From assembly GCA_003141715.1 (NCBI GenBank), contig PLNF01000098.1, forward strand, positions 1 through 52,337: a stretch of DNA of 52,337 nt, in the 5' to 3' direction. This document shows, one piece after another, positions 17,960-52,337 of this stretch. The notes beneath the pieces were generated by a model, which worked only from the letters and a program-made list of their open reading frames with translations, searched no databases and was not told the origin of the DNA. Origin of the DNA: Bacteroidales bacterium. Its GTDB lineage: Bacteria; Bacteroidota; Bacteroidia; Bacteroidales; VadinHA17. Every line of letters begins with the position of its first letter. Within the stretch, counting starts at the first letter, position 1. A program made the position numbers and the translations under genes.

Positions 17960-17965
17960 ATTTTT

Positions 17966-19075: not shown

Positions 19076-19077
19076 GG

Positions 19078-30966: not shown

Positions 30967-30999
30967 ATATTGAAAGTAAGGATTTTTTGTGATTTACTC

Positions 31000-31919: not shown

Positions 31920-32321
31920 ATGAAAAAACTGGCGTTGCTTTCTCTAATCTTGATTTCATGTAATCCTGCAAATCGTGCGATTGTTAATCTTAATGGATTT
32001 GAGCAGTTTGTTAACACTACTATCTCAGAAAATTCTGCTTATTCTTCGAAAAATTGGGCTGACGCTGATTCTACTTTCAAATATTTCAAAAACTATTTCT
32101 CGAAAGAGAAGCTAAATCTTTTATCTGAAGATGACAGGGATAAATTTATTCAACTTGAGGGAAAATATGAGGGAGCAAGAGCAGTTTATAGTACTCAAAA
32201 ATTAATAAATGATGTGGAAGAAGGTGCAAAAGATTTTAGCAACCGGGCAAAAGGATTTATCGAAGGAGTGAGTAAGAGCATTGATTCCAATGTAATAAAA
32301 AAAGTGTTAAACAATCAATAA
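31920..32321 (+). CDS. Small lipoprotein, first gene of the tubulin/kinase operon
   Basis: The start is at the ATG at 31920 (MKKLALLSLILISC|N), giving a classic lipoprotein signal with lipobox LISC at residues 11-14; the frame upstream begins with TTG and adds six residues. The mature part of ~119 aa is helical and charged, with no motif I recognise. It would be anchored on the outer or inner membrane facing the periplasm. It is 9 bp before the next lipoprotein gene, so they are co-expressed and possibly a pair. Confidence 0.7.
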   Translation: MKKLALLSLILISCNPANRAIVNLNGFEQFVNTTISENSAYSSKNWADADSTFKYFKNYFSKEKLNLLSEDDRDKFIQLEGKYEGARAVYSTQKLINDVEEGAKDFSNRAKGFIEGVSKSIDSNVIKKVLNNQ

Positions 32322-32330
32322 TCTAATATT

Positions 32331-33860
32331 ATGAGGTATAGGTTTTTCTTTTTTTCATTGGTTTTACTTATTCTTGGTACCATAAGTTGCCATAGGTCAT
32401 CCTTAGTATTGCAATGGGACAAGATTCGTGAATATCACCAGCTCTTAAGTGGAACTAGCCATGCAGGTGAAGAAACAAGAAACGTTGACTTTTATTTGGA
32501 TTTTACAGTAGGCCTAAATGTCGCTTTTCGGGATGCCAATAGCAGAAATTTTTTTGATGCTGTAATTAATTCTATGAAAATAAGTTCAATAGACTTTTAT
32601 AAACTGGCGAATGATTCTATTGCTCTATTCGAGAACACCTCTAAGGAATCACTTTTTACTTTATTGAAAGACCCTAATAATTATCTGAAAGCCGATGCCC
32701 CTATTGATAAGGCCTTAGACATGATTGTCAGAAATAATACATTTTCTATTCTTGTAACTGATGGTGAACTCTGGAAAAAAAATGAAGAAGAAAATGCATC
32801 TTCTAACCCATGGGCCAGAAAAACATTTGCTGACTGGCTGGACAAAGGTAACCGTATAGATTTTTATATAACTGATCATTTAGATGCTGGAAAAACCAAA
32901 CATCTATATTATATGATATTTATCCCTAAAGTTTCCTCATCTGAAAAACTTCCTTCAGATGATATCTCATATTTTTTGAAGACGGATATTAATGCAAAAA
33001 CGCTTGTCTTTGATAACTTCTCATTCAGGAATGACTTTTATAAATTAAAACAGGATTATGCTTCGATTCAATCTTCTGGAGCTGCTGAAGAACTAGCAAC
33101 TGACAAGCAATCCTACATTAACGATTTTAATAACGCATATGAATATATGGATTGGGCTCTCGATTGGAAAAGTATAATTAAATATATTAGGAATGCTAAG
33201 GACGAGAGTACGGGTAATCTGGTTCCAGGAGGAAAGGACCTCATCGGGAAAATATATCTCGATGCTAAAAATAGTGAATTATATCATCTGGAAAGTATTG
33301 GGTTAAAGGTTTACGATCTGTTTGATGATTACTCCCAGTTTGAATTTTGTAAACAATGTCAGGCAAAACCACCTGTTTTTAAACTTGATACGAAAGGAAA
33401 CAAAGAACTTGATTTGAACAACAATAGTATGCCCATTATTCTTGAACGAGGCCTTGAAAGTTGCTATGATGAAAACGGAAACCTTCTATCTGAAAGAAAA
33501 TATAATGGTCCTAAACTGAAGACTATTGAGGAGTTATTTGTACTTGACCAGAAGTTATTTAATTATTCATTTGGTAAGGATACTGTGGGTGAAATAGATA
33601 TAAAAATTCATCCTAATTTTAATGGTACACAACTTTCTGCTGACCGAGAGAACTTTGTTCGTATCGATGTGATAATGACAAAATGCACTCCAAACACTGA
33701 TAATCCAAAGTTGAAAAAATTCATGTGGGAAGGCAAAAGAATTCCTTTTAACAAAGGACTTTACGAGAGTATTATTCTTGCAATGAAGGATGCAAATCCA
33801 GAAGGTAAAGTAATTTATTCCTATTATATAAAAACCTTACCAAACAACTATTTTGAATAA
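32331..33860 (+). CDS. Lipoprotein with vWA-like segment
   Basis: A 509-aa protein. Signal MRYRFFFFSLVLLILGTISC places the lipid Cys at residue 20. From ~50, 'VDFYLDFTVGLNVAFR' followed later by 'TFSILVTDGEL' (~residues 139-149) recalls the first and fourth strands of a von Willebrand A fold, though a full DxSxS MIDAS is not present. The C-terminal half is mixed, with one CKQC. Tubulin-like genes in bacteria are often linked with vWA proteins, which makes the reading sensible. It is likely the envelope-side sensor or anchor of the system. Confidence 0.6.
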   Translation: MRYRFFFFSLVLLILGTISCHRSSLVLQWDKIREYHQLLSGTSHAGEETRNVDFYLDFTVGLNVAFRDANSRNFFDAVINSMKISSIDFYKLANDSIALFENTSKESLFTLLKDPNNYLKADAPIDKALDMIVRNNTFSILVTDGELWKKNEEENASSNPWARKTFADWLDKGNRIDFYITDHLDAGKTKHLYYMIFIPKVSSSEKLPSDDISYFLKTDINAKTLVFDNFSFRNDFYKLKQDYASIQSSGAAEELATDKQSYINDFNNAYEYMDWALDWKSIIKYIRNAKDESTGNLVPGGKDLIGKIYLDAKNSELYHLESIGLKVYDLFDDYSQFEFCKQCQAKPPVFKLDTKGNKELDLNNNSMPIILERGLESCYDENGNLLSERKYNGPKLKTIEELFVLDQKLFNYSFGKDTVGEIDIKIHPNFNGTQLSADRENFVRIDVIMTKCTPNTDNPKLKKFMWEGKRIPFNKGLYESIILAMKDANPEGKVIYSYYIKTLPNNYFE

Positions 33861-33907
33861 TTTTTACAGACCCAAGCTTATATAAATAAACCTTTAAACT
33901 TTTCATT

Positions 33908-34297
33908 ATGTATAATCATTCGTATTCTCTTACTAATGTAGGCGGCTTAATAAGTTCAACCTATATACTAGCTATTGCATGGGCAATTGGTTTTGTTTTT
34001 ATCTTTTGGTTAATAGCAAATATTGTTCGATTTGATGGGGGGAAAAATCCAAGAGATCCCTTCAGACGCAGGGTCTGGTTTTACATTTTACTGGTTATCT
34101 GTGGCATAAGCTTTTTCTTATGGAATTTCCTGTATGTCGTTGGCCTAATAAAGGGTGCTCCAGCTCAGGACAAATTTACCGGACATATTGCCATAACAAC
34201 AGGAATTGTATTTATCCTTTATTTTGTATTAGTTTTTATAATCTCAAAATTTTTTCCAAGATCTAAAATTGGAACTGTATTTCCATCTAAAAAATAA
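33908..34297 (+). CDS. Three-helix membrane protein
   Basis: A 129-aa protein with three membrane helices (~residues 20-43, 58-80, 98-118) and a basic loop 'FDGGKNPRDPFRRRV' between the first two. It starts 47 bp after the lipoprotein gene and ends 6 bp before the tubulin-like gene. It has no known domain. It may link the periplasmic lipoproteins to the cytoplasmic GTPase. Confidence 0.7.
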   Translation: MYNHSYSLTNVGGLISSTYILAIAWAIGFVFIFWLIANIVRFDGGKNPRDPFRRRVWFYILLVICGISFFLWNFLYVVGLIKGAPAQDKFTGHIAITTGIVFILYFVLVFIISKFFPRSKIGTVFPSKK

Positions 34298-34303
34298 ACT
34301 CTT

Positions 34304-35881
34304 ATGGAAGAAAAATATTTTGTAATCGCTATTGGCGGAACTGGAATGCGTTGTCTTGAGGCCTTCATTCATACCTGTGCAATGGGGATGTATGATGATA
34401 AAGAGATAACTATCTTGGCTTTGGATACAGACCAGGAAAACGGCAATTTTTTAAGAGTAATAGAATTAATCAAGAATTATAATAACATTAAGGACTTGAA
34501 TGATCAAAGGCGGATTTCGCGCAAGGATACTGTCTTTTCTGCTAAGCTTAATTTCTTTAAGTATAGTCCTGATTATCATGATCCGAATAAGAATGGCAGA
34601 TTTACAAGCCTTTTTGATTATTCCAAACAGGATGATAGGGATATTGCAAACCTGCTACTTAGCAAAAATGTCAGAGAATTTGATCTTAAGCATGGCTATA
34701 GGGCACAAACTCATCTTGGTTCATTGCTTATGTATCATTCCATGCTTGCAGATATTAGGAGATTTCATGACGGTGATCTTTCAAGATTTATCAAACTTAT
34801 TTTCGATGCAACAAATACCAGTAAACCGAAGGTATTCGTTTTTGGATCTGTATTTGGAGGTACGGGTGCTTCTAGCATTCCAGTTATTCCAAAAGCTTTC
34901 GAAGCAGGCATTGATATCCTTGATCCTGGGAAATCAATAAAAAATGTATTGTTTGGAGCTATTTTGCTGACGTCATATTTTAAGTTTCCAACACCTGATC
35001 CAATGCAAAGAACACAAGAAAAAATAGTTGCCACACACAATAATTTTTCGATTAATTCCCAGGCAGCAATGATGTTTTATGACAGAGATGAAACCGTTAA
35101 ATCGACATACAGAAAATTTTATGTTATAGGTACAGAGTCTCTTGATTATGAAACACAACAGGATGGTAACAAGCCGGTTACAGGAGGAAAAGATCAGGAA
35201 AACGACTGTCATTTTATCGAACTAATTGCTGCATTTGCCGCATATGATTTTTTCAAAACATCGGTAGATAATCTAAGGGAAGAAACAGATAAATATTACT
35301 TCAGAGCAATTAACAGCAATGGGAAACTTGAGCTTAATGATTTTGTCGATATCAGTGAACAGGAAAAACTGGCCACCAGATTCGCTGCCCTGGTTATTAT
35401 GTCATTTCTCGCGAATCATCCCAAAGTTGAATTCTTTTCACAGGCCAAAGCTGGAGGAATAGAGAATTTCCAGGGTTATACTGATATTGACCTGCAGCAG
35501 ATCAATGCTCTAATGGATTATATGAAGCTATTCCATTATAGTGTTGATGAAAATAAGAATATTAAAGATGGGTGGCTCAGGCAGGTTCATCGTTCGGCGG
35601 GAAGCAGTGATAAATTTCTATTTCACCCTGAGTTGTTTGGAATATCCAAATATAAGGAATTGGAGAAATTCGACTGGGGCAGATATCTTTACTGTGAGGA
35701 TAATGAATATTCAAAATGCACTTACTATAAAACCCTTGGTAAAGGTCCATTTGAAAAATTTAAATCAGGTTTCTTGGGAGAATCCGATCCTAAGGAGTAC
35801 GCTAATAAGATGGAAATGCTTCTTAAGCGTTCTTTTGATACTATACTTAAGATGTACCAATTACCCGGCAAAAAAGCATGA
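34304..35881 (+). CDS. Tubulin/FtsZ-like GTPase (Tubulin_2-type)
   Basis: A 525-aa cytoplasmic protein. 'IAIGGTGMRCLEAF' at residues ~8-21 is the first nucleotide loop, and 'FGGTGASSIPVIPKAF' at ~184-199 is the tubulin signature (GGTGxx, loop T4 that binds GTP phosphates). 'LALDTDQEN' at ~38-46 follows the pattern of a strand ending in acidic ligands. It is longer than FtsZ (~400 aa), as the divergent bacterial tubulin_2 proteins are. Tubulin-family GTPases form filaments; polymerisation here is expected, not shown. It is the fourth gene of the operon, directly before the actin-like ATPase. Confidence 0.85.
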   Translation: MEEKYFVIAIGGTGMRCLEAFIHTCAMGMYDDKEITILALDTDQENGNFLRVIELIKNYNNIKDLNDQRRISRKDTVFSAKLNFFKYSPDYHDPNKNGRFTSLFDYSKQDDRDIANLLLSKNVREFDLKHGYRAQTHLGSLLMYHSMLADIRRFHDGDLSRFIKLIFDATNTSKPKVFVFGSVFGGTGASSIPVIPKAFEAGIDILDPGKSIKNVLFGAILLTSYFKFPTPDPMQRTQEKIVATHNNFSINSQAAMMFYDRDETVKSTYRKFYVIGTESLDYETQQDGNKPVTGGKDQENDCHFIELIAAFAAYDFFKTSVDNLREETDKYYFRAINSNGKLELNDFVDISEQEKLATRFAALVIMSFLANHPKVEFFSQAKAGGIENFQGYTDIDLQQINALMDYMKLFHYSVDENKNIKDGWLRQVHRSAGSSDKFLFHPELFGISKYKELEKFDWGRYLYCEDNEYSKCTYYKTLGKGPFEKFKSGFLGESDPKEYANKMEMLLKRSFDTILKMYQLPGKKA

Positions 35882-35958
35882 TGCTTACTGTTGTAATGGG
35901 AGGCTAATTCAAAATCAAAAACAGGACCAGAGAAAGGAATAATTTAAATTATAATACT

Positions 35959-38900
35959 ATGAGCGATTCTAAATCACTGCTGATAAAAAGTAAAGATACA
36001 AAGACGACCACAAGAGGTAGTTGGGGTAAACTTAAACCAGCCAGCTCTTTCATCGCAGGAATTGAAACCGGAGAGACTACGGATACCAGTGCAGAGATAC
36101 TTAATTCAATGGTTACAGGTATTCCTTCCATTTGGGCGCGCACCAGACTGTTCCAGTATGCATTTGAGCATTCCGAGGTTAGTGATAAAGGGATGTCTTC
36201 GTTGCTAAAGGTTTATCGCGATATTATTGATGAATGGAAAGGTCTGATTGGATTGATGGCTATCTTTCCAGACAGGATCACAATTAAAAACAATCTTGCT
36301 CTTGATTATAAGAATGATGATCTGTTTACAATCCCAGGAGCTTTTGGCCGTCTTCTTTTTGATGATATTGACTTATGGTGCAACCCAGAACAGCTCGCAA
36401 AAAATAACAAGAAAGATCCTAAACCATTTATTCAATTGATCTATTATAATGATGTACTAATTGGCGCCACCTCTCCATATACACTCGTTTTTACTGCTGT
36501 TGATTATACCAATCTATCTGCAGGAGATATACCGTGGTATCGTAATGGAAAATTCGAAGATCCGTTAAAGTTTGATCCAAGTCCTGATAACTTACAGAGG
36601 ATTCTTATATTTACTCAAAATATAAAGGATTGTCTTATTGATTTTTATAAGAATCTAAATCAAAACAGGGAACAAAAAGAGCCTCTTGTTCACAAAAGTC
36701 TTCAATACGTCTGTGAACAAATGATTAATGGTATATCAAAGAAGGGAATTGTGCCCGAAGGCTCATTAGGTGAAATAAATTTTGCACCCCCTTTTTATAA
36801 AATCTTCAACTATAAACAGACTTTTTATTTTGGGGAGGGCAGGTTTTCTATGTCTCAAGTAACCGACTCTTTCTCTCCGATAGATCCTCAAAAACTTTTA
36901 ATGGATTGTGAGTCTATTTATCTTTTTTCAGATGTTGATGCTCTTAATCCACTTTCAAAAATTTCAGCTTATCTGCTCAAGGTTGAATCCAAAAGTCAGA
37001 CTTTCTATACTCCGCTACCCCTGAGTTTACACGGACTACGTGTATTTTTCCATCATATCAATGATTTGATAATGGCAGATTCAACTCATGACAGCGATAT
37101 TTCTACTTTAAGCGGATCTATACAAAAAGATAAGCTCAAGGTTGAGCTACGGTTGAAAGTTGATGGTAAGTCAATAAATCCAATCACCAGGGAATATGCC
37201 CTTAATACTTTAAATGAACCACTCAGGAACATAATAATGTGGCCAGGCTTTGTCTCCAGAGAATGGGGCCAGTATTATATCTATTCAGAATATCCTTCAA
37301 ATCAAAGTACTTTAAGAGCAATTCCTTTTTATAAGAAATACGAAAATTATAAGTATGAATTAATATTTAATGATCAACAAAATCAGCTGGTTACATTAGA
37401 GAGTCAGACTAATCAAAATGATATAAAAATTGACCAGTTAATTAAATTTCCTATTGATACTGCATCTACTATTGATGATTGGCCTTATGAGATTATAAGA
37501 TCAAATCAACCTATAGCTGGAGTTGAACTAAGAAAAAAGATAGGCAGCAATCATGTTAATTGCGGATATATTATTGTTAAAAAACCTGATGAACAGGATA
37601 TGTACCTACCTATAAAAGATCTGAATTCACGGAGTAATCCGGATAAAGTCACTCTAGGCATTGATTTTGGGAGCAATAATACTGCAATTAGTTATAGTAA
37701 GCAGGGTCAGGCGGCTGAACCGCTTGCTTTTATGAATCAGAGAAGGTTTCTCCTTGGAATGGAAATAACTGATACAAATCATGAAAAACCAGCTCAAAAG
37801 AATGAGTTATTATTTTTCCAGAATGAAGAACCGCAGAATGGCCAGATAAAGTCATGGATTCATGATCATAAGAATATTTATGTTCAAAGTAATGAACGTG
37901 AAGAGATATCAGGGGGAGTTCCTGTTTTTGAACCAAATATTTTGGTCCATGATATGGATCAAAGAACGATTAAGACAAATGCAGGAATTATGCATTATAA
38001 TACAAAATGGTTAACAGACAGTGAGGGAATGGGTAAAAAGGAAGCATTTTTGAGATCAGTGGTTCTTATGGCGGCAGCTTCTCTTTTTGCTGATAATAAG
38101 AAAATTAATAAAATAAGATGGTCTTATCCGGGTTCTTTTTCTGATTTTGATATCACTCAGTATGGTATGATTTTTTCCGGCTTGCATTCTCCTTATAAAG
38201 GAGATGTTAGTTCAGAATCATTTGGTGATACAGGATCTGCCACTGAAGCTGAATCTGTTGCCAATTTTGTTTTAAACGCTAGAGAGTCTGCAGGTGATAA
38301 TCTTTTACTAGGTATTGATGTCGGTGGAAGCACAAGTGACCTAATCATAATTGCAAAAGACTTGGAACTAGGGAAATATGTTTTTAAAAAACAAAGTTCA
38401 CTTCGACTGGCTTCCGGTATTCTGTCTGATGTAATTCTTAAATCAGGCAGGATGCGTGAGACTTTATTATCCTTCCATAAGTCTGCTGATTGTCCATTCA
38501 AAATAGTTGGTATTGAGACAATGGCTTCAAAGCCTCAAACATCACCATTTTATCTGAATGCTATCCTTGACAGGCTGCAGAGCGATGATGATTTTAAAAA
38601 GTTCTACTGGTACATGGCTGGGAAAAATCCGGAAATTTTTACGATTCCATTATTTCTTTGCGGACTACTTCTTTTCTACGCAGGTAAACTTATTGCAAGT
38701 GTAGTTAGAGAGATGCCTCCTGAAGCAGCCAAAGCAATTGAGCGTGTCGACTTTTTCAGTTTTGGGAAAGGAGGTAAGATATTCGAATGGCTTTACGTCT
38801 ATCCAGGAGCACCTGATGCAGAGAAATATTATAAAACATGTTTTAGGGAAGGGCTTGGAGATCAGTTCAATATTGAACTTGATCTTAGTACAAGAAAAGA

Positions 38901-39393
38901 CATGCTAAAGGATAATAAGTTGGAGGTGGCCAAAGGATTGACCGCTGAATCAAGAATAACCCTTAGTAAAGAGGAACTAGCTACTATAAGGGAAAATTCT
39001 GATATTATAGGTGAACAAGGATATAAGTTCCGTGCTACTGGAGGAAATCCTGTAGAGCTTTCTTGGTATACAACGGCATTGGATGAACATTTTGATAACA
39101 TATCTTTTGCGCTTGAACTTCCGAAAGATTTTGTTGAGCTTAATAAATTTCTGGATTTATTCTTGAAATATGTTACTAAACTGACTGATTCAGTAAACAC
39201 AAAACAGCTTGATGGTTTTAAGAAAGATGTTTATAAAGACCTTCTGACTTATATTACGTCAGATCCTGAGTACATAAAGGCTATGAAAAATAAGGAAGTT
39301 AAAAGTGTCAGCACAGGGTTTCGCCATTCACTCCTGGTTTATGAAGGTATATGTTATCTTAAAAAGTACTTTATTCCAAATCTATTTAAATAG
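35959..39393 (+). CDS. Giant protein with C-terminal actin/Hsp70-type ATPase domain
   Basis: A 1144-aa cytoplasmic protein. Residues 1-~560 match nothing I recognise and seem globular. From ~563 an actin/Hsp70-fold ATPase begins: phosphate-1 loop LGIDFGSNNTA (566-576), phosphate-2 loop LGIDVGGSTSDL (784-795), and an adenosine-like 'SFGKGGKIFEW' (~934-944). The C-terminal ~150 residues are helical. The layout recalls SrfB-like or Hsp70-like proteins, but I cannot confirm a family. With a tubulin-like GTPase just upstream it pairs two cytomotive folds in one operon. Confidence 0.8.
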   Translation: MSDSKSLLIKSKDTKTTTRGSWGKLKPASSFIAGIETGETTDTSAEILNSMVTGIPSIWARTRLFQYAFEHSEVSDKGMSSLLKVYRDIIDEWKGLIGLMAIFPDRITIKNNLALDYKNDDLFTIPGAFGRLLFDDIDLWCNPEQLAKNNKKDPKPFIQLIYYNDVLIGATSPYTLVFTAVDYTNLSAGDIPWYRNGKFEDPLKFDPSPDNLQRILIFTQNIKDCLIDFYKNLNQNREQKEPLVHKSLQYVCEQMINGISKKGIVPEGSLGEINFAPPFYKIFNYKQTFYFGEGRFSMSQVTDSFSPIDPQKLLMDCESIYLFSDVDALNPLSKISAYLLKVESKSQTFYTPLPLSLHGLRVFFHHINDLIMADSTHDSDISTLSGSIQKDKLKVELRLKVDGKSINPITREYALNTLNEPLRNIIMWPGFVSREWGQYYIYSEYPSNQSTLRAIPFYKKYENYKYELIFNDQQNQLVTLESQTNQNDIKIDQLIKFPIDTASTIDDWPYEIIRSNQPIAGVELRKKIGSNHVNCGYIIVKKPDEQDMYLPIKDLNSRSNPDKVTLGIDFGSNNTAISYSKQGQAAEPLAFMNQRRFLLGMEITDTNHEKPAQKNELLFFQNEEPQNGQIKSWIHDHKNIYVQSNEREEISGGVPVFEPNILVHDMDQRTIKTNAGIMHYNTKWLTDSEGMGKKEAFLRSVVLMAAASLFADNKKINKIRWSYPGSFSDFDITQYGMIFSGLHSPYKGDVSSESFGDTGSATEAESVANFVLNARESAGDNLLLGIDVGGSTSDLIIIAKDLELGKYVFKKQSSLRLASGILSDVILKSGRMRETLLSFHKSADCPFKIVGIETMASKPQTSPFYLNAILDRLQSDDDFKKFYWYMAGKNPEIFTIPLFLCGLLLFYAGKLIASVVREMPPEAAKAIERVDFFSFGKGGKIFEWLYVYPGAPDAEKYYKTCFREGLGDQFNIELDLSTRKDMLKDNKLEVAKGLTAESRITLSKEELATIRENSDIIGEQGYKFRATGGNPVELSWYTTALDEHFDNISFALELPKDFVELNKFLDLFLKYVTKLTDSVNTKQLDGFKKDVYKDLLTYITSDPEYIKAMKNKEVKSVSTGFRHSLLVYEGICYLKKYFIPNLFK

Positions 39394-39395
39394 GC

Positions 39396-40154
39396 ATGCT
39401 TCAATGGATAGGATTTTTACTAAAGAAAGATCGGAGCATTATCTCCTGCAGGAGCGAAAAAGGTCTTAAAAATAAGCAGGAAGATGCATTTTACATCTCC
39501 CCTTTCATTCATGCTCGACGATTGATCATTGTAGCTGATGGAGTAGGAGGTCATGCTAAAGGTGATTTCGCAAGTAATTTATGTATAGATGTATTCAGAG
39601 AAGAATTTTTAGGTCTTGATCTTAATTTTGATCCTGCTGCCTTTCTTGAAGCGACTTCAATATTAACAGCGGAAAAGATACTCGATAAATCCACCTCAGA
39701 CCCTGAATTTATTAATTGTGGGACAACTGTTTCAGGTTTTCTGATTTACCATGATAATATTTTTACTCTTAATATCGGCGACAGCAGAGTATATATTTTT
39801 CGCGAGGGCATATTGTCTCAAATTACAGAAGACCATTCTCTTGTAAAACAAATGGTTGCGCAGGGAAGAATAACTGAAGCTGAAGCTTTGGTCCATCCTA
39901 AACGTAATATCATGACATCTGCAATTGGGCAACCACTTGAAAAGATGACCATTTCCATTGCAGGTCCAACCCAATGTTATAAAAATGATATTTTGCTGGC
40001 CTGTACTGATGGCGTGCATGGATTTTTAAATGATCAGAATATAAGTCAGATAATACAAGAATCCCAACCTCGAATTCTTGCAGATATTATTGTAGAGAGT
40101 GCACTTAAATCAGGAAGTACAGATAATATAACCTGCTGTTGTATCAAATTATAG
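39396..40154 (+). CDS. PP2C-type Ser/Thr phosphatase
   Basis: A 252-aa protein with all PP2C/PPM landmarks: 'NKQEDAFY', 'VADGVGGHAKGD' (Asp 48), 'LNIGDSRVYIF', 'TEDHSLVKQM', 'LACTDGVHGF', 'STDNITCCCI'. The metal-binding aspartates are present, so it should be an active Mn/Mg-dependent phosphatase. It starts 2 bp after the actin-like gene and ends 4 bp before the next one. It almost certainly reverses the work of the three Ser/Thr kinases in this cluster. Confidence 0.92.
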   Translation: MLQWIGFLLKKDRSIISCRSEKGLKNKQEDAFYISPFIHARRLIIVADGVGGHAKGDFASNLCIDVFREEFLGLDLNFDPAAFLEATSILTAEKILDKSTSDPEFINCGTTVSGFLIYHDNIFTLNIGDSRVYIFREGILSQITEDHSLVKQMVAQGRITEAEALVHPKRNIMTSAIGQPLEKMTISIAGPTQCYKNDILLACTDGVHGFLNDQNISQIIQESQPRILADIIVESALKSGSTDNITCCCIKL

Positions 40155-40158
40155 ACCT

Positions 40159-41583
40159 ATGGAAAAAAAAATTTCAGTTGTTTTTATGCCCGATTTTCTG
40201 ATGGCAGCTATGGAGCCAAATAGAAATAGATTTATAAAATTGTTGAATGCTGAAAACAAGGATAAATTTGGTCTTTACTTTTTTGTGGACCCTTCACAGG
40301 AATCAGTTGATTACAGCTTGTCCCACAAGGAAGCTTTTCTTGAGGGGAAAGCTGATTATTACGGGGATATTTATAAATTGTTGCTTTCAAATAGTACTTA
40401 CGGTTCAAATAACACAGGGGTGGAATTTCTCCTGGATACTATATGCAATAGGTTGAAGAAACAATATTACGATCAAATTTCACGACTTTCAAATTCAGAT
40501 GGGGATAAAGGGTCCCCTATAGACATTACAGCTATTTCTCATTCTTCACTTGTAGAAAAGGATTCATTTGAAAACCTTAAACGGTTGTTGATTAATTGTT
40601 TCGGTAGAAACAATTTTACATTTTCATTTTCCTCTTTTACAATACCGCAATTATTACTGAAATACCTGAGAGGGAATGGGCAAATCTCAAATAATGATTC
40701 AAACTTTATCTTAATTGATGGATTGACAGATAATTTGCAATTAACAGCTCTGGCCTACAGTGAAAATGGGACATGTGAGAATATCGGAGAGGAGAAATTT
40801 AAAAATGACGGATTGGATCCCCGGGTAAATATTATTTCTTCTTCAGTTGTCAGACATTTTGATACTTATTATGGTTGGTCGCTTACTGAAGAAGTTAAAA
40901 ATGAGTTTATTAGAAAATTTTCCAGCCAGGCAGAAATGATAATAGAGAAGCTAAAACAAGAGGAAATCCTTAGTTTCCAATGTACACTTCATTATTATGA
41001 TTCTGAGAATAATCTTCAAATTCCGTTTGATAAAAGGATTATAGAGGAGCTAGTTATGAAATATGTTGATAGGATCGACAGGAATCTTAAGAAGTTTATG
41101 TCAGACAACAACCTTCCTTATCAATCAGTTGAGAAGGTTATTATTCTGGGAGATAACCTAAATATAAGCGAGTTTCAGAAGCATATAGGATTTGAACACC
41201 GGAAAATATTGTATTTAGGTAGTGATGAAGTTTTTACTGGAGTATTAAAGGAACTTTTGGTAAGCCCTGGAGCCGGAAAAATAGCTGTTACAGAAGTCGG
41301 TAAAGGCCAATCTGAAAAAAAGACAATTGAGAGTACTATATTAAAAACCGGTGATGAGGTTCAGTTTGGATGGATAGCAGGGGATGGAAGTTATAGGGAA
41401 TATAAAGCGGTTTATGTTGGTAACAATATTTATACAATAAAAGATTGTATTAATCCTAAAGGGCTTTTAACTGGTATGACATTTACTGCAAGCAGGCTGG
41501 AATTAAATAAAACCAACGCATTGATTGTTTCCAAACGTGATTTTCATACAGGCATTTTAACAATATTGAAGCTCCTTAATTAA
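40159..41583 (+). CDS. Degenerate actin/Hsp70-like protein
   Basis: A 474-aa soluble protein. 'NFILIDGLTDNLQLTALAYSE' (~185-205), followed by 'RVNIISSSVVRHFDTYYG', sits where Hsp70/ParM proteins have their second phosphate loop and 'GG-dFD' region, and 'VEKVIILGDNLNISEFQKHI' (~325-345) corresponds to the late adenosine strand. The glycines and Asp that hold ATP are mostly absent, so it may be a non-catalytic partner. The last ~80 residues are strand-rich. It is joined to the PP2C and kinase genes by gaps of 4 and 8 bp. Confidence 0.6.
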   Translation: MEKKISVVFMPDFLMAAMEPNRNRFIKLLNAENKDKFGLYFFVDPSQESVDYSLSHKEAFLEGKADYYGDIYKLLLSNSTYGSNNTGVEFLLDTICNRLKKQYYDQISRLSNSDGDKGSPIDITAISHSSLVEKDSFENLKRLLINCFGRNNFTFSFSSFTIPQLLLKYLRGNGQISNNDSNFILIDGLTDNLQLTALAYSENGTCENIGEEKFKNDGLDPRVNIISSSVVRHFDTYYGWSLTEEVKNEFIRKFSSQAEMIIEKLKQEEILSFQCTLHYYDSENNLQIPFDKRIIEELVMKYVDRIDRNLKKFMSDNNLPYQSVEKVIILGDNLNISEFQKHIGFEHRKILYLGSDEVFTGVLKELLVSPGAGKIAVTEVGKGQSEKKTIESTILKTGDEVQFGWIAGDGSYREYKAVYVGNNIYTIKDCINPKGLLTGMTFTASRLELNKTNALIVSKRDFHTGILTILKLLN

Positions 41584-41591
41584 TTACTACA

Positions 41592-43391
41592 ATGTCACTT
41601 GAAACTTTTAAAATGATCCTAGAAACCCTTTGTAAAACGGGTGAAATATCTGAAGAAGACAGGCAGCATCTTTATGCTGAGGGTAGGAAGATAAAGCTGT
41701 CCAAAACATCAGTTGATCATATGATCGGCAGTCAGTTGAAATTTGCTAAAGGCTCCAGATCAGTACAGAACCAAATTGAAGGGTCAGGATTTCTTTTAGG
41801 CAATGAAGAATCCAAGTCAGGATCAGGATTTGTAATAGGCTCCAGCGACGAAACTGCAAACTCGGGTTTTACAATGGATAATGACATACGCTCTGGATTT
41901 ACACACTACGAATCTTTTTCATCATCAAAATTTACCAATGAGAGGATTCTGAGTGAATCAGACCAGGGTGCGATGAGCATTGTATCTGAAGCAAGGCAAG
42001 GAGCACGATATGTAATTATAAAAAGACTTAAGACGGAACATAAAAATGATCCTCAAAGGAGAGATCTCTTTTTCAAGGAAAGCGAGTTTTGTCGCGGCCT
42101 TCAGCATGAAAACATCGTCAGTTTTATTGAGAGCGATGAAGATGATCGGGGACCATATTTTTATATGGAAAACATAAATGGGGAGACCCTGGAAAAGAAA
42201 ATTGCCAGTAAAAAACTAACACCGGAAGAGATAAAAAGTATTGCTAGAAAAATACTGTCAGGATTAGATTATCTTCATGATAAAGGCTTCATTCACAGGG
42301 ATCTTAAGCCAGGTAACATAATGATCGGGTTCAAAACACAACAGGTAAAACTTATCGACCTTGGATTAGCCTATTCTGAAGGTTACGTTGATTCACTTCT
42401 CGTTGCCGGTACGCCAAAATATATGGCACCTGAAATGTCGGGAAGTAAGAGTACTTTCAATAAGACAACTGATATTTATTCTTTCGGATTGATCCTTCTG
42501 GAAATGTTCACCAAAAGTGTCGATCCTAAAAAAATTGACAAGATAAAACCTTTAGAGTGGCAGAGTATAATCAGCAAATGCATTCAGAAAGAGTACAAGA
42601 TGCGATACCAGACATGTGATGCTCTTATAACTGATATAGAAAAGATAGGGATCTCTCCTGGTGGGCAGGCTCCATTAGATAAAGATAAATTCATTAATAA
42701 AAAGCTGGATGAATATTTTGAAGACGGGATTTTTCTTGAGCAGGAGGAGAAGCTGTTATATTTTGAAGCAAAGGAGATTGATTACCCGCTTGACAAATTA
42801 AAATTACTCATTGAAAAACGACTGGCTGAGGAAGATATCAAACTCAAAAAGAATGAGGAAACAAAAATTCAAAAACAAAAAGAAGAAGAAAGCAAACTGA
42901 AACTAAAAGAAGAATCAATCAGGCTGACGCAGATCGAAGAGGTTAATAAGCAAAAGGGGAAAAAGGAAGAACTACAATTGAAGCTGGTAAAAGAGAAGGA
43001 AATTACTAGACAAAAAAGAATTCAAGAGATAAAAACAATAAGGGGGAAGAAAAAAAAGGAAGCCATTGATAATTTTGATAAAGAAAATGGGGCTGGATGG
43101 ATAGTTTTTTTCTTTTTCTTAGGAGTGGTTCCCGGGATAATATTTTGTATTTTACATCACCGGGGATTCTTTGCATATATCCTTATCCCAATTTTTTCTG
43201 CATTAGTTTCAACATCATTTACACTGTTAATTAGTGCTGTTATTCATTTAACATCTTACAGATTTCAACCTGTTTTTAAAATTATAGTTGTGTTTTTATA
43301 CCTGATTCTGGCATACTCTTTTTGCAGAGGATTTTCAGGATCTTACAGAGACTTGTCATCCTTGTGGATTTGGATTAAATCATTCATCTGA
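41592..43391 (+). CDS. Membrane Ser/Thr kinase with (G)SGF repeats
   Basis: A 599-aa protein. Residues 1-~50 are a helical domain ('TGEISEEDRQHLYAEG') that is echoed again after the kinase domain (~375-415). Residues ~57-105 hold four (G)SGF motifs in a Ser/Gly-rich linker. The kinase domain (~118-355) has VIIK (~143), HRD (~234-236), DLG instead of DFG (~254), and MAPE (~277-280). The Gly-rich loop is poor (QGAMSIV). A Lys/Glu-rich coiled coil (~415-500) and three or four membrane helices (~500-595) follow. It is probably active, with the kinase in the cytoplasm. Confidence 0.85.
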   Translation: MSLETFKMILETLCKTGEISEEDRQHLYAEGRKIKLSKTSVDHMIGSQLKFAKGSRSVQNQIEGSGFLLGNEESKSGSGFVIGSSDETANSGFTMDNDIRSGFTHYESFSSSKFTNERILSESDQGAMSIVSEARQGARYVIIKRLKTEHKNDPQRRDLFFKESEFCRGLQHENIVSFIESDEDDRGPYFYMENINGETLEKKIASKKLTPEEIKSIARKILSGLDYLHDKGFIHRDLKPGNIMIGFKTQQVKLIDLGLAYSEGYVDSLLVAGTPKYMAPEMSGSKSTFNKTTDIYSFGLILLEMFTKSVDPKKIDKIKPLEWQSIISKCIQKEYKMRYQTCDALITDIEKIGISPGGQAPLDKDKFINKKLDEYFEDGIFLEQEEKLLYFEAKEIDYPLDKLKLLIEKRLAEEDIKLKKNEETKIQKQKEEESKLKLKEESIRLTQIEEVNKQKGKKEELQLKLVKEKEITRQKRIQEIKTIRGKKKKEAIDNFDKENGAGWIVFFFFLGVVPGIIFCILHHRGFFAYILIPIFSALVSTSFTLLISAVIHLTSYRFQPVFKIIVVFLYLILAYSFCRGFSGSYRDLSSLWIWIKSFI

Positions 43392-43442
43392 CTGTAATGT
43401 GAACAGCATTCAGATATAATAATTAAATAAAATACGAAATAT

Positions 43443-46493: not shown

Positions 46494-46554
46494 AATGTTG
46501 ATCTCTTTGTCAAAAGAATTAATGATCTGAAAGTCATGAGATTATAAGGAAAAC

Positions 46555-46585
46555 AAAATGCATTGATCACAAATCAATGCATTTT
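46555..46585. terminator. Bidirectional terminator between the convergent operons
   Basis: AAAATGCATTGAT (46555-46567), loop CACAA, ATCAATGCATTTT (46573-46585), followed by T/C-rich DNA. The stem is a perfect 13 bp with A runs on one side and T runs on the other, so it works in both directions. It lies 61 bp past the MORN-kinase stop and 27 bp past the end of the bactofilin-like gene. Confidence 0.9.
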
Positions 46586-46612
46586 TCTAATTATACATGG
46601 TAATAATTAACA

Positions 46613-47542
46613 TCAATTAGGAAAAGCAATATCCAGGAGTATCCTTTCAACTCCAAGTTCTTTATCCCATACTTTTTGAGATTCTTCTTTTGAGCTAGAG
46701 TCAAGATGCTCATACTTAGATAACTCGGTTAAAAGAATTTTGACTTTTTGAATATCACTTTCTATAGAGTGGAAATTCAAAGCCCTTTTTGCCAAGTTAA
46801 GAAGATAATAAACTTCTCCGTTAACTGTTGAATCCTGGAAAACATCGCTGGGAAATATTCTGGCTTTTGATTTTAAAAGTTTCCTGTAATAATTGATAAC
46901 GCCATTTTCTTCAACACTCTCCGATATAAGAGGAAGATAGTGTACTTCAGCAGTTTTCCCATCATCGGAAGTTTCAAATTCAAATGGTGAACTCGAAATC
47001 GCGAATGGGAGCCACCAGCCATTTATCCCGACTATTTTTGCCTTTCCGGCCTGGAATGAACCGAATATTGAATTCTCTATTCTAAGCATTTCATCAACAA
47101 AAATAGCTCCAAGAACAATAGAATTTACTATTGATACTTGTTTCGCCCTGATATTCCCAAAAACCAGTGCATTTTCCAGTTTAATATAATTACTGATAAT
47201 ATCTCCTTTTACCACAACTCCCGCTTTATTCAAATCTCCTATAACGCTCTCTTCAGGAGGTTTATTGGTTTCCATTATAGCAATTGACATAGTAGCATTG
47301 ATTCCGGACATGAACCTTATTGGATTGCCCGGAATAGATCCTGCTTCAAGAGTTATCTCTTCGGTAGCTAATACTGGTCCATTAACGGTACCAACCCCTA
47401 TATTTTTAATATTCTGAGCAAATATGCCACCATTGACAGTAAATGGGCCTCTCAAAATAAGATTTCGTAACAATTCAGATTGCGTCGAAGGATAAAAATT
47501 CCCGTTTACTTCGTTTTGTAGTTCTACGTTATTAGGATCCAT
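46613..47542 (-). CDS. Bactofilin-like beta-solenoid protein
   Basis: A 309-aa protein with repeating short strands and hydrophobic spacing in residues ~25-170: 'GPFTVNGGIFAQNIKNIG', 'GDIISNYIKLENALVFGNI', 'GAIFVDEMLRIENSIFGS'. This is the pattern of a right-handed beta-helix as in bactofilins (polymer-forming cytoskeletal proteins), though longer than the usual ~150-200 aa. The C-terminal ~100 residues are helical. No signal peptide is seen, so it should be cytoplasmic. It is the last gene of the minus-strand operon, 5 bp after the coiled-coil gene. The family call is moderate. Confidence 0.65.
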   Translation of the reverse strand: MDPNNVELQNEVNGNFYPSTQSELLRNLILRGPFTVNGGIFAQNIKNIGVGTVNGPVLATEEITLEAGSIPGNPIRFMSGINATMSIAIMETNKPPEESVIGDLNKAGVVVKGDIISNYIKLENALVFGNIRAKQVSIVNSIVLGAIFVDEMLRIENSIFGSFQAGKAKIVGINGWWLPFAISSSPFEFETSDDGKTAEVHYLPLISESVEENGVINYYRKLLKSKARIFPSDVFQDSTVNGEVYYLLNLAKRALNFHSIESDIQKVKILLTELSKYEHLDSSSKEESQKVWDKELGVERILLDIAFPN

Positions 47543-47547
47543 AATTT

Positions 47548-48564
47548 TTATTTTTTAGCAGATTCAATGGTTAAAGGAGGATTATTCTTAAGCGAAACTA
47601 TGAGGAATTTCATATATTCCTCACTAATGAAACCTTGCTTTGCACATTCATTAAGATTATTTTCCATATTGCTAATCTCATTTTCAGACATATTTCTCCA
47701 GGTAACCCTGGAGGCCATCTTACTCATATCAACATTTGTTCTTTGAGTAAGCTGAACTTTAACTCTATCATTATCCTTCGTGCCAGAATAAATATCGCAA
47801 TTAAAGAATACCTTATCATTATCTGATTCCAATATAGTTACAGGCAATTCAATAGGACCACTGAATCTGAATGAGTCAGACTTTATATTTTGAACGGCAA
47901 AATCAAATGCAGCCCTGTTAGATTCAAATTCAGCGATTTTGACATCAACTGCCTTTAATAGATTTGTTAAGATCTCTTCACGCTTTGATTTTATCTTATC
48001 AATTGTGGCGGTTGAATTATTGAATAATTCAATATGCTGGCTTTTTAATCTCAGGTAGATGGTTTTAAGATAGTGCAATTCCCACACCTCAAATATGTAT
48101 TTCCCTAGGCGAGTAATGTCTTTTACGTAGCTGTCCTTCACCTGCTCATTGGCTGTGTCGAATTTGTTATTGATTTTCGCCAGGCGTGTAAAGGTTTTTG
48201 TGTGTTCTTTCTTTATTCTCTGGAAAGCAGTATGAATCAAGGAAATATCTTCTGATAGGTTGGATATATGTTCCAGGATGTTTGTCTGTGCATCTACCTC
48301 AATTGTCCTCGTAATTTCATTTTTTACAGATGTAAGACGCTCAAGCTCGATAACCATCTGAGCCATTAGATCTCTGTTCAGAGCTGAAATGCCACCGCTG
48401 ACACTGCTTAATCCACTATTAACATTGCCTAGGCCATTGCTTGTGGTAGTGTTAAGAGTTCGAATATCATTTTTAAGTTGACCAATGATCTCTGAAATTC
48501 CATCAACCATTATTTTCATTGATCTTGTATCAATTACTGCTGATAGTGTAGTACCTTCTGCCAT
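47548..48564 (-). CDS. Soluble coiled-coil protein
   Basis: A 338-aa protein without a signal or membrane helix. The first ~60 residues contain a Ser/Gly/Asn-rich spacer ('NTTTSNGLGNVNSGLSSVSG'). Residues ~65-235 are long amphipathic helices with heptad character. The last ~100 residues form a compact, mixed domain. It shows no recognised family. Lying between the membrane coiled-coil protein and the bactofilin-like protein, with gaps of 27 and 5 bp, it is probably a structural adaptor. Confidence 0.65.
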   Translation of the reverse strand: MAEGTTLSAVIDTRSMKIMVDGISEIIGQLKNDIRTLNTTTSNGLGNVNSGLSSVSGGISALNRDLMAQMVIELERLTSVKNEITRTIEVDAQTNILEHISNLSEDISLIHTAFQRIKKEHTKTFTRLAKINNKFDTANEQVKDSYVKDITRLGKYIFEVWELHYLKTIYLRLKSQHIELFNNSTATIDKIKSKREEILTNLLKAVDVKIAEFESNRAAFDFAVQNIKSDSFRFSGPIELPVTILESDNDKVFFNCDIYSGTKDNDRVKVQLTQRTNVDMSKMASRVTWRNMSENEISNMENNLNECAKQGFISEEYMKFLIVSLKNNPPLTIESAKK

Positions 48565-48591
48565 AGATATAGTATTTTCAGATTTTAAAAT

Positions 48592-50481
48592 TTACTTCTG
48601 TGTTAAATAAAACTTTTCCTTGTTCCTGACCTGGAGAGTATAATCTTTGAGATCACCCCTGACAAGCATTACGCTTTCTGGTTCTTTTTCCAGATTAGCC
48701 TCCATTGTGTCGGCTTCTTGGAAAACTGTTTCAACTTTGACTTCATCAGAGGCAAGATAGGATTTCATCCTGCTGATAGTACTACTATTGAGAATATCCT
48801 GGGAAGTGTAAAAGTCCATTGATAATTTAAGTTTTTGCTCACCAACTCTGGCTTTTACTGCACTCTCTTCAAGCCTGTTCCTAATAGGTCTGAGCTCTTC
48901 GGTAAAGATCTTTACCTCTTCACGTAATTCTGAATTCTCCTGTTTTTTATTTTCTCTGAGTTCCAGCTCTTTTTCCCTTATTATTCTTACTTTCTCATCA
49001 TGTTTTTCAAGCCACAATTTATCCCAGATTGGATTAATAAGGTCTTCCTTGATTTTCAGGATCCGTGATTTTAAAGCTTCCACATCAGTAAACTCTTCTC
49101 CTGTAAGCTGACAAATCCATTTCTTCTTAAATGTATTATAAAACAATATAGCATTCTTGTAATGTTTTGAATTCTCTTCCTCTTCATCTGGTGCTATCTC
49201 AAGAGACATATCCTTAATCAGATCTGCATATTTATCATATCTTTTCTGCAGGTAAGAATTCAGTTCTGAATTTGTTATCTTTTCATTTTCCGGCATATTC
49301 TTGAGTATACCCTTAACTTTTGCCTGAATATCCCTTAATTTGATCATGTCGTCTTTCTTATAAAAGGATTCAAATTCAGCGACTTCAATTTTATCAAAAT
49401 CATTACCATCGTACTTTCTGATAGAATTTTCAAGTAGTTTTGATCCGCTTAACTTCGGATTATAAAATCTGGTAAGCGGGAAATCATATATATCTTCTAT
49501 TTCTTCCACACTTTTCAGGAGGACATCATTTATAGAATAATTCCGATTATCAGTCAGGCTAAAGGATAGATCATCCATCTCTTTATAAACGCTTCTTATA
49601 AGCATCTCAATTTTTTGGTAGCCGAATGACTTAACTATTTCAACCTCAGAATTTGTCATCCTTAATTTGTCAGTGAATGTGCTTCTGTCTCTTGAAGTCA
49701 TCACGGATATTAAATCATTAGAGACATCGCGGAACTTAGGTTCAAGGTCTTTTATGATTGTAGGAATTTTGTCATCTTTCTCATAAATAGGCAGGTTAAT
49801 GTTAATTACTGAGCAATCAGTAACAAGCTCATCAAGAAGATTCAATATATCTTCAACATCTTTTTCAATCCCGGTTAAATAAATAGTATCTGAAAATTCA
49901 CTTTCTTGTCCCGGAGGAAGCAGAACTGGAAAATCTTTGTTTAATTTTGATCTCCGGTCCATTAGTTCTGTAAGCTTGTTTTCGCAATTTTCTATCAAAG
50001 AGCAATTAATGCTCGAATTGTCTATGATTTCTGAAACATCTGTAATCAATGAACCATCTCCGAATGGCAAAATTTCAGCGCAATAGTTTACGGTTCCGAT
50101 TTTCTTAACCAATTGAGGCATTTTTGCATTCAGCTCTTTAACAAGCCGATCTCTGTCTGCCTTTAAGCCATCCAGCTTCTCTTTATTTGTTTTATAACTA
50201 AAGTAAAGCCAGATGGCACCTGCTAAAAGTACCACCAGCAGGAAGTAACTTACCACAAAAGCAAGAATAATCCCTGCTAAACAAACAATTGAAGGTAATA
50301 TCCAGTATTTATTATTTTTAATCTCTTCTTCCTGTTTTTTAACAGAAAGCAAGCTTTTTTGCAGTTTTGCATAATGTTCAGTTATGGCATTATGATTTTC
50401 AAGTGCAAAAAGAAGTGCAACATCCATCCCCTTTTCAAGGGGTTGTTCTTTGTAAAAAATTGAGGAGGGAATTGATTTCAT
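48592..50481 (-). CDS. Membrane-anchored coiled-coil protein
   Basis: A 629-aa protein with a short N-terminal cytoplasmic part. Two adjacent membrane helices at ~59-97 come next ('VCLAGIILAFVVSYFLLVVL'). Long, charged helices with coiled-coil character then fill most of the rest (~100-600), interrupted by a Pro/Asp-rich region around 190-250. Together with the kinase upstream (23 bp gap) it looks like a scaffold that tethers a complex to the inner membrane. No known domain. Confidence 0.65.
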   Translation of the reverse strand: MKSIPSSIFYKEQPLEKGMDVALLFALENHNAITEHYAKLQKSLLSVKKQEEEIKNNKYWILPSIVCLAGIILAFVVSYFLLVVLLAGAIWLYFSYKTNKEKLDGLKADRDRLVKELNAKMPQLVKKIGTVNYCAEILPFGDGSLITDVSEIIDNSSINCSLIENCENKLTELMDRRSKLNKDFPVLLPPGQESEFSDTIYLTGIEKDVEDILNLLDELVTDCSVININLPIYEKDDKIPTIIKDLEPKFRDVSNDLISVMTSRDRSTFTDKLRMTNSEVEIVKSFGYQKIEMLIRSVYKEMDDLSFSLTDNRNYSINDVLLKSVEEIEDIYDFPLTRFYNPKLSGSKLLENSIRKYDGNDFDKIEVAEFESFYKKDDMIKLRDIQAKVKGILKNMPENEKITNSELNSYLQKRYDKYADLIKDMSLEIAPDEEEENSKHYKNAILFYNTFKKKWICQLTGEEFTDVEALKSRILKIKEDLINPIWDKLWLEKHDEKVRIIREKELELRENKKQENSELREEVKIFTEELRPIRNRLEESAVKARVGEQKLKLSMDFYTSQDILNSSTISRMKSYLASDEVKVETVFQEADTMEANLEKEPESVMLVRGDLKDYTLQVRNKEKFYLTQK

Positions 50482-50504
50482 ATCTATAGGAGGTAATTAT
50501 TGAT

Positions 50505-51884
50505 TTATTGCAAGTAAAATGAATCAGTAAAATTTTTGGCAATCCTGGAATACTCTAATGTTATTTTATAGTTCTTGCTGGTATCGGAAATGAGTATGTT
50601 AAACTCTTTCCTGAAAGAAGTACCCTGAAAAAGAAGTTTATTATTTCCGTTAGCAGCATCGACTGATACATTAAAGCCCCTTTTAATGGAGACTTTTTCT
50701 ATTAATCGATTGTTAAAGAAAAGATCAACCAGAAGGTCCCCCGGTAAACTAGCTCCGAAAAATTGAATCGAGATCTTACCATAATCCCTTTTAGTCATAT
50801 TGGGCCGAGGATTGAAATTAGTTCCCGGAGATATTAATGTTGCTTCAGATTGATAGTTCTGGAATGCTGATTTATTTATTACTATCTCTTTTAAACTGTT
50901 TAATCGCTCAATATTTTCAATATCCTTAATTATTTCTGAACAATAGTTGTAACGATCATTTTTAATATTTTCAATACATTTGGAGATAATCACTTTCCAT
51001 TCCTCGTTTTTTATTTCATTTGCCTTTACCCTATCTGTGGAGCGAGTGAACATTTCGAGTAGGATAATACCAAATGAATAAATATCTGCTCTTCGATCTA
51101 TTTCAGACTGTCCAGTTTTCATCTCAGGAGCCATATATTTAGGAGTACCTGCATTCGCAATATTATCGACCATTGAATCTGAATAAGCAAGTCCCAAATC
51201 AATCAGTTTAACATTATCTCCAATTGTGGTGATCAAAATATTGTCTGGTTTTAGATCACGGTGAACTACCTGGCTTTTATGCAGATAGCCAATTACATCT
51301 AATAATTCCAGTGATATTCTGGTAATATCCTTCTCATTAATACCCGAAGATATTAATATCGATAGAGGAGTTCCATCAACATAATCCATCACAATATAGG
51401 GACCATTTTCATCGCTCCCTTTCTCGTTCATCACTACCAGATTAGGATGATCGAGTTTTATTCCATTTGTATATTCTTTAAAGAACAGTTCTATTCTCTT
51501 CTCATCATGTAAAAATTCTTTCTTTAATCGTTTGATTATTACTTTTTTAATTTTATCCTGACGAGCGAAATATACATCGCTCATTGCACCCTGGAATATA
51601 GTTTTAGTAATATCGGTATATTTTTCTCCTGCTTTATTACTATTGTTGAAGAGATTTCCTGCAGATTGATTCTGGAAATTTGTAAAACCAGAACCTCCTA
51701 AATATTCTGATTTTTCTAATTCTTTCAAATCTTCATTCAGAGAAGGTTCGTTTTGTACAAAACCGGAACTTTCTTCTGGTTTATCTGGTTCAGATTTTAA
51801 AACAAAACCCGATCCGCTTTCCTCGGGTGTAATCGGTGAAAGTAATTTTGAAAGATTTGGATAATATATATTCACAAAAACCAT
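50505..51884 (-). CDS. Soluble Ser/Thr kinase with (G)SGF repeats and C-terminal beta domain
   Basis: A 459-aa protein, first gene of the minus-strand operon. Residues ~20-70 carry three SGF motifs (GSGFVLK, SSGFVQN, GSGFTNF), like the two plus-strand kinases, but the helical GEIS-type domain is missing. The kinase domain has VIIKRL (~117), HRDLKPDN (~203), DLG, and MAPE. It has no membrane helix. The last ~100 residues are strand-rich ('LLVDLFFNNRLIEKVSIKRG'), perhaps a ligand- or filament-binding domain. The promoter at 52029-52059 gives it a 5' leader of about 140 nt. Confidence 0.85.
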   Translation of the reverse strand: MVFVNIYYPNLSKLLSPITPEESGSGFVLKSEPDKPEESSGFVQNEPSLNEDLKELEKSEYLGGSGFTNFQNQSAGNLFNNSNKAGEKYTDITKTIFQGAMSDVYFARQDKIKKVIIKRLKKEFLHDEKRIELFFKEYTNGIKLDHPNLVVMNEKGSDENGPYIVMDYVDGTPLSILISSGINEKDITRISLELLDVIGYLHKSQVVHRDLKPDNILITTIGDNVKLIDLGLAYSDSMVDNIANAGTPKYMAPEMKTGQSEIDRRADIYSFGIILLEMFTRSTDRVKANEIKNEEWKVIISKCIENIKNDRYNYCSEIIKDIENIERLNSLKEIVINKSAFQNYQSEATLISPGTNFNPRPNMTKRDYGKISIQFFGASLPGDLLVDLFFNNRLIEKVSIKRGFNVSVDAANGNNKLLFQGTSFRKEFNILISDTSKNYKITLEYSRIAKNFTDSFYLQ

Positions 51885-52028
51885 AGTTCTCGTGATACTA
51901 ATTCTTAAAGAAATATAAACAAAAAATTACCTGAATACATTGCTTTAAGAATTTATTGATCTGAGATTCAAGAATGTTTGTAACAGTTAAAAGGGGTATC
52001 AAATAATTTTTAAAACAAGTAAGTTAAC

Positions 52029-52059
52029 CAAATATAGAAAAAATATTTTGTTAATCAAA
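52029..52059 (-). promoter_or_regulatory. Bacteroidota promoter of the minus-strand kinase operon
   Basis: On the minus strand TTTG (52059-52056), a 19-bp spacer, then TATATTTG (52036-52029). This is a textbook match to the -33/-7 promoter described for Bacteroides. Transcription would start near 52022, ~140 nt before the kinase start. The rest of the end of the window, 52060-52337, shows no gene, repeat or other signal that I can support. Confidence 0.7.
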
Positions 52060-52337
52060 TTTGTTTATAAAGGTTTTTATATAATGTAAATAAAATTTTC
52101 CAGAATGATTGTGGTATCTACGTTATAGATTCAAACTAATAAATAGCTTAAAGTTACTTATTGTCAGGATAGGTGTTTAAACTAAGGATTATGCTTTAAT
52201 TCTAATCGACTAATATCGAAAAAGCTGGATGTGCTACTTTTGCCAAGAGAGTAAGTCTAAACTACTCCCCATTTTTAGGACCACTATTCCTCTTTTCTTA
52301 ATTGATAATAATACTTCTTATGATGATGTAAATACGT

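Follow-up and report, generated by a model that had tools for sequence, protein, structure and literature searches.

The question raised by this locus is whether proteins related to tubulin, to actin or Hsp70 and to signalling kinases, encoded side by side, belong to one conserved system, and what such a system would do. The locus lies at positions 31920-51884 of a 52,337-nucleotide stretch of DNA (the window: contig PLNF01000098.1, assembly GCA_003141715.1, Bacteroidales bacterium, VadinHA17). A sequence-only reading had described two convergent operons with short gaps, containing tubulin-, actin/Hsp70- and bactofilin-like proteins, three Ser/Thr kinases and a PP2C phosphatase, and had proposed a regulated assembly linked to the envelope. 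All 13 open reading frames (ORFs; g01 to g13, Table 1) were found; they form two convergent runs, with spacers of 2-77 bp inside each run and 119 bp between the two. That reading was partly confirmed: the kinases, the phosphatase and the tubulin and actin/Hsp70 folds were recovered and the bactofilin was not; scattered homologues and missing folds, the two outcomes that would have refuted the reading, were not observed for a core of genes, while the full gene set does not recur as such. Instead, the core is followed by exchangeable tails.

The predicted structure of g04 gives the FtsZ/tubulin GTPase-domain fold, and the tubulin claim based on the motif FGGTGAS is thus upheld by family and structure evidence. 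The nucleotide loops T1 and T4 are kept (GGTG at residues 11-14, FGGTGA at 184-189 invariant in 51 rows). With 14.6 bits against the curated cut-off of 27, g04 stays below the threshold of Pfam Tubulin_2 (FtsZl1), a family with no match in the host genome, and 50 of 51 relatives of g04 match it at E ≤ 0.1. We call g04 FtsZl1-like and not a formal Tubulin_2 member. Plasmid carriage of g04 was considered and rejected; five plasmid records were found, cyanobacterial and 25-29% identical.

For g05, structure prediction yielded the actin/Hsp70 fold that had been claimed for it, with structural matches centred on residues 561-1009; for this domain, Hsp70 chaperones and MreB reach equal scores. The two phosphate loops read earlier as intact are both present, and they are the phosphate-1 (LGIDFGSNN) and phosphate-2 (LGIDVGGSTSD) motifs of this one protein. 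No relevant Pfam match was obtained for g05 (1144 aa), and a SrfB-like identity was dropped, no such model being listed among the Pfam or NCBIfam results. The structural match lists gave no additional fold for the unmatched parts of the g04 or g05 models, which does not prove absence. The protein encoded by g07 (474 aa), hereafter act2, had been taken for a degenerate second actin/Hsp70-like protein. On its own it remains below the Pfam HSP70 cut-off (E 0.0011; 17.7 versus 20.6 bits), and the profile of its family gives a partial match to PDB Hsp70, in agreement with that claim. Intact Hsp70 ATPase motifs were not found in act2, the motif positions not being conserved in a 15-row alignment, and hhalign of act2 against g05 returned nothing, which leaves a closest relationship between these two Hsp70-like proteins unsupported. 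Phage origin was also rejected: a search of viral contigs with g05 alone returned no relative, and g04, g05, g07, g10 and g12 had none in PHROGs.

In an even sample of 395 genomes from across the phylum, 13 carry the tubulin-like gene and 11 the actin-like gene, and all 11 actin-like genes adjoin a tubulin-like gene; linkage of the core is thus conserved. Of the two genomes with the tubulin-like gene only, one shows an actin-like fragment at a contig end and the other has a tubulin-like gene with stops. The tubulin-like gene of genome G390 (L033:9250-10488) is broken by stops and has no actin-like neighbour. Among 60 relatives, own genome counted, four carry the actin-like gene. In a scan of GTDB species contigs the tubulin-like gene had at least 537 relatives, and the locus counts given here refer to the best 80 of these, with loci having enough flanking DNA as denominators. 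The vWA-like gene and the small membrane protein were each found at 56/65 of these loci, the actin-like gene at 70/76 and act2 at 54/58. The vWA-like, membrane, tubulin-like and actin-like genes recur in distant Bacteroidota (loci L027-L036), several of which adjoin MotA/ExbB-like and MotB- or OmpA-like genes (MotA and MotB matches below the Pfam cut-off), making a link to ion-driven envelope motors possible. There is good support for the core as a Bacteroidota form of a kind that is known but still uncharacterised.

What lies beyond the core differs from locus to locus. Tail class was scored at the 52 loci where act2 is followed by more than 1.5 kb of DNA: 38 carry TerD or TerD-like genes (33 and 5, respectively), 11 a DO-GTPase with GAP1, two (L037 and L050) a kinase and one (L099) none, and no locus mixes tail types. 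In the TerD class, an OmpA- or CW_7-type envelope protein accompanies 37 of the 38 tails and a P-type cation ATPase 11. Pfam confirmed TerD in 7/7 sampled TerD genes, and likewise OmpA, DO-GTPase, GAP1-N2, GAP1-M, cation ATPase, PP2C and kinase in sampled tail genes. The five TerD-like (TerDd) tails were named by eye; their profile similarity to TerD is weak (probability 24%), and three sampled genes gave no Pfam match. Among the loci read, the tail with kinase and PP2C is an uncommon branch, seen in the window, in its same-genus twin (G400 = L037) and in L050, a Bacteroidales metagenome-assembled genome, where the PP2C also lies between the actin-like gene and act2 and the kinase holds the same place as in the window. 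These three cluster on both the tubulin and the actin tree, together with other, unclassified rows.

The trees comprise tubulin-like proteins of at least 480 aa and actin-like proteins of at least 1050 aa, with tail labels on 53/81 and 54/66 rows, respectively. The broken tubulin of G390 (L033) was omitted from alignments A1 and A2 and the truncated actin of L032 from A2; A3 (51 rows) and A4 (43 rows) were hand-picked for spread from longer lists. Seven tail changes are required on each tree, these being quick trees with some long branches, and a single origin of the GTPase tails in one clade was rejected (p-AU 1.5e-31). A recent tail change inside the TerD class is seen between L053 and L054, which are 95% identical in the tubulin and 91% in the actin, with the vWA-like gene at 47%. 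Their DNA similarity stops within act2, and one continues with a TerD-like gene pair and the other with TerD. Since the similarity ends inside act2 with different tails beyond, act2 probably joins core to tail.

Table 1. Features of the locus, with positions in the window
Feature	Positions	Strand	Evidence
g01, small lipoprotein, DUF6565	31920..32321	+	Pfam DUF6565 3.8e-7; lipobox
g02, vWA-like lipoprotein, core	32331..33860	+	invariant D57, T143, D144, E146 in 17 rows; hhalign 85%
g03, small membrane protein, three transmembrane (TM) segments, core	33908..34297	+	hydropathy; 56/65 loci
g04, tubulin/FtsZ-like GTPase-fold protein, core	34304..35881	+	
g05, large protein, actin/Hsp70 ATPase domain at residues 561-1009, core	35959..39393	+	
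g06, PP2C phosphatase, kinase-type module	39396..40154	+	Pfam PP2C 4.7e-11
g07 (act2), degenerate Hsp70-like, core, proposed adaptor	40159..41583	+	PDB Hsp70 profile match 6.9e-5
g08, Ser/Thr kinase 1 with SGF-repeat linker and three TM segments at the C-terminus	41592..43391	+	Pkinase 2.2e-41
g09, Ser/Thr kinase 2 with SGF-repeat linker and three TM segments, followed by about 500 residues	43443..46493	+	Pkinase 1.2e-40
g10, repeat-like beta-rich protein (by eye)	46613..47542	-	no Pfam match; PDB best E 0.32
g11, protein without accepted family, putative coiled coil in the sequence-only reading	47548..48564	-	Pfam matches all below cut-off
g12, protein with one TM segment, no family assigned	48592..50481	-	hydropathy; 2/60 relatives
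g13, Ser/Thr kinase 3 with SGF-repeat linker but without TM segment	50505..51884	-	Pkinase 9.3e-38
Core cassette g02-g07, diverged from same-genus twin	32322..41600	.	dS 1.5-2.5/saturated versus 0.003-0.35 in flanks

On the envelope side, the membrane proteins announced by the sequence-only reading were recovered by a hydropathy script, and of its two lipoproteins g01 has a lipobox by pattern script, while g02 fails the strict pattern and yet has a Cys after a hydrophobic stretch that recurs in its aligned family. The vWA-like identity of g02, absent from that reading, was assigned by eye; hhalign aligns it with 85% probability to the matching gene of distant loci, and Pfam vWA matched neither g02 nor any of 17 relatives.

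All three kinases and the PP2C had been named correctly. A fourth related Ser/Thr kinase, which the earlier reading did not include, lies past the window end (contig C13, 54573-56936; L018:8574-10937) and shares their N-terminal layout and SGF repeats; its counterpart in the twin is 75% identical over 406 residues. Between g13 and this kinase lies a stretch of about 1.3 kb (contig C13, about 52258-53593) with transposase-like ORFs, IS3-like by eye (L018:6416-7527), which is absent at the matching place in G400. Three to four SGF motifs occur in the first 130 residues of all four kinases, versus means of 0.06-0.20 and maxima of 2 in shuffled sequences, and the repeat could mark a site of docking or phosphorylation. 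In kinases 1 and 2, the hydrophobic segments lie downstream of the kinase domain. For g10, a bactofilin identity is unsupported by Pfam (no match at E ≤ 1) or by PDB sequence profiles, where none of the matches was a bactofilin. Among the fetched loci, g10 and g11 (46613-48564) were seen in the own genome and the twin only, most loci being too short to show the region elsewhere.

The history of the locus was read from the comparison with the twin. The DNA of the two is 97% identical over 41542-52257, and the proteins of g08-g13 are 90-99% identical, versus 40-71% for the core proteins. Synonymous divergence (dS) was 1.5-2.5 for g02, g03, g05, g06 and g07 and saturated for g04, as against 0.003-0.35 for g01, g08-g13 and two upstream genes at 29851-31485; a TPR gene at 26011-29064 gave 0.62. 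Since rpoB was matched in neither assembly, loci of the translational-GTPase family served as genome clock, and the 17 gene pairs around them gave a median dS of 0.56 (range 0.43-1.29). The left edge of the cassette is sharp, identity falling from 98% to 64% across adjacent 100-bp blocks at 32300 (edge at about 32300-32400); the right edge is at the start of g08 (about 41600-41700), with a second dip within its kinase domain. On the simplest account, the island was shared recently and, in one lineage or both, a divergent allele has taken the place of the core. Pedobacter pairs did not bear out, as a general rule, a higher variability in the core than around it, though in these pairs too variation is greatest in the vWA-like gene, act2 and the OmpA gene. 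Left of the locus, positions 2984-10265 encode a VapE/Prim-Pol protein, a resolvase, a WYL regulator and an AAA ATPase, a content like that of mobile elements or islands, and three tandem related AAA-type ATPases (one checked with Pfam) lie on the minus strand at 16913-20184.

An envelope-linked regulated assembly is a reasonable inference, supported on the envelope side by the hydropathy of the window proteins and the OmpA genes in the tails of relatives. Beyond fold, linkage and envelope signals, the mechanism is what we infer. The vWA-like lipoprotein and the small membrane protein, with its predicted membrane segments, would tether the tubulin-like GTPase and the actin/Hsp70-like ATPase to the envelope as a complex, and act2, given its constant place and the one natural recombination-like junction inside it, would couple this core to an interchangeable control module. 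In the window the PP2C and the Ser/Thr kinases make up this module, and two of these kinases have membrane segments. The kinases would read the state of the envelope and phosphorylate parts of the core, and the PP2C would reset them. In relatives, TerD with an envelope protein, or DO-GTPase with GAP1, takes the same place. Filaments of the tubulin- or actin-like protein are possible. Because the core can act as a replaceable cassette, a stress or conflict response fits better than housekeeping. We put at about an even chance that the locus encodes a cell-envelope-linked, nucleotide-driven assembly with an interchangeable control module, serving stress or conflict response more than housekeeping. 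Several points weigh against it: out of at least 537 tubulin-like relatives, the locus counts cover the best 80; 6/76 tubulin-like loci lack the actin-like gene even at E ≤ 1, and 4/58 loci lack act2; the vWA assignment of g02 is based on a weak profile match; and the excess divergence of the core is known from one genome pair, the Pedobacter pairs not showing it. A bolder version, which we hold only tentatively, would be a plug-in envelope machine with one tubulin and actin/Hsp70 engine, which different Bacteroidota connect to three unlike controllers (kinase/phosphatase, double GTPase/GAP1 and TerD/OmpA), with act2 as adaptor and the vWA lipoprotein as the variable face that the machine turns outward; the engine itself would be exchanged from species to species in the form of a divergent cassette, as a conflict or recognition system would lead one to expect.

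Three other explanations were weighed. Makarova and Koonin (PMC2875224) proposed membrane remodelling for FtsZl1, by which tubulin-like, perhaps with actin-like, filaments would shape the inner membrane and kinases would regulate assembly. The FtsZ/tubulin and MreB/Hsp70 folds and the membrane and envelope partners agree with such a cytoskeleton. As the available text of that paper states, however, T6-H7 elements could not be found in FtsZl1, and a reviewer there, who favoured transport or signalling, objected that a cytoplasmic FtsZ-like protein and envelope partners occupy different compartments. The equal scores of the g05 domain with Hsp70 chaperones and MreB also count against it, and sparse spread (13/395 genomes) and tail exchange are unlike basic cell biology; we consider it unlikely. 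A dedicated conflict or anti-phage system appears doubtful. Its core would be an NTP-driven threshold device and its tails sensing or effector modules, as argued for tubulin/HSP70 GTPase systems in the available text of Kaur et al. (PMC7159879). Tails that include DO-GTPase/GAP1, a diverged core within a recently shared island and patchy presence in 4/60 relatives favour it, yet no PADLOC defence model matched the core proteins beyond weak marginal matches, the kinase matches being generic; the module of the window showed no killing effector such as a toxin or nuclease, and tails with TerD, OmpA and cation ATPase suit stress handling equally.

The kinases and the second run (g08-g13) could also be a separate mobile signalling cluster that merely neighbours the core. 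Their near identity to the twin, set against the divergent core, would be expected from this, and both kinase 2 (at E ≤ 1e-60) and g12 are limited to 2/60 relatives, the own genome and the twin. In the window, the twin and L050, however, the PP2C is embedded in the core run, the L050 kinase stands at the same place, and the three group on both trees; we judge this explanation improbable.

The tubulin-like and actin/Hsp70-like proteins are close operon partners in many Bacteroidota, including gut and soil species, and the control modules that replace one another on a common core amount to an experiment done by nature. In a literature search of titles, abstract starts and passages, with subscription papers outside its scope, no Bacteroidota tubulin-actin/Hsp70 core with such exchangeable tails was described. 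FtsZl1-type function is now testable in culturable carriers of the core, among them Pedobacter cryoconitis DSM 14825 (L109) and Chitinophaga filiformis DSM 527 (L101).

Among known systems, the Ter (TerD) stress systems were reportedly treated by Anantharaman et al. in 2012. TerD is present in the tail of 33/52 relatives, with a P-type cation ATPase nearby at 11/52 loci; unlike in Ter systems, there is no TerD among the 13 window genes and the tail sits on a tubulin/Hsp70 core. According to the available text of PMC2875224 (2010), FtsZl1 (Tubulin_2) operons contain vWA, kinases, a P-loop GTPase and OmpA, the founding locus has three kinase genes and a Bacteroides caccae sequence is in the alignment; an FtsZ-like protein, a candidate vWA protein, kinases and, in relatives, OmpA likewise occur here in one operon. 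The kinase partner is found in the window as three Pkinase proteins, and a candidate for the vWA partner is g02, without a Pfam match and aligned by hhalign to the distant vWA-like gene, whereas the frequent P-loop GTPase and OmpA are absent among the 13 window genes and present in relatives. That text names no actin/Hsp70-like partner and no act2, though these genes may stand unnamed among its lineage-specific families. Tubulin_2 proteins are described as a divergent, sparsely spread group in the available part of PMC9871819.

The DO-GTPase/GAP1-N2 conflict systems are described in the available text of PMC7159879 (2020) with tubulin, HSP70 or kinase-PP2C-vWA themes, mainly from Actinobacteria and Firmicutes. 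Tubulin, HSP70, kinase and PP2C are in common with the present locus, as would be vWA through the candidate g02; DO-GTPase and GAP1 are absent among the window genes and adjoin the same core in 11/52 relatives. Its statement that the DO-GTPase-GAP1 pair is not exchanged among its systems is qualified by these tails. There, the tubulin, HSP70 and kinase themes are said not to overlap and the GTPase-GAP1 pair is constant; in Bacteroidota it is tubulin and Hsp70-like proteins that stay constant together, with the GTPase-GAP1 pair as one tail of several.

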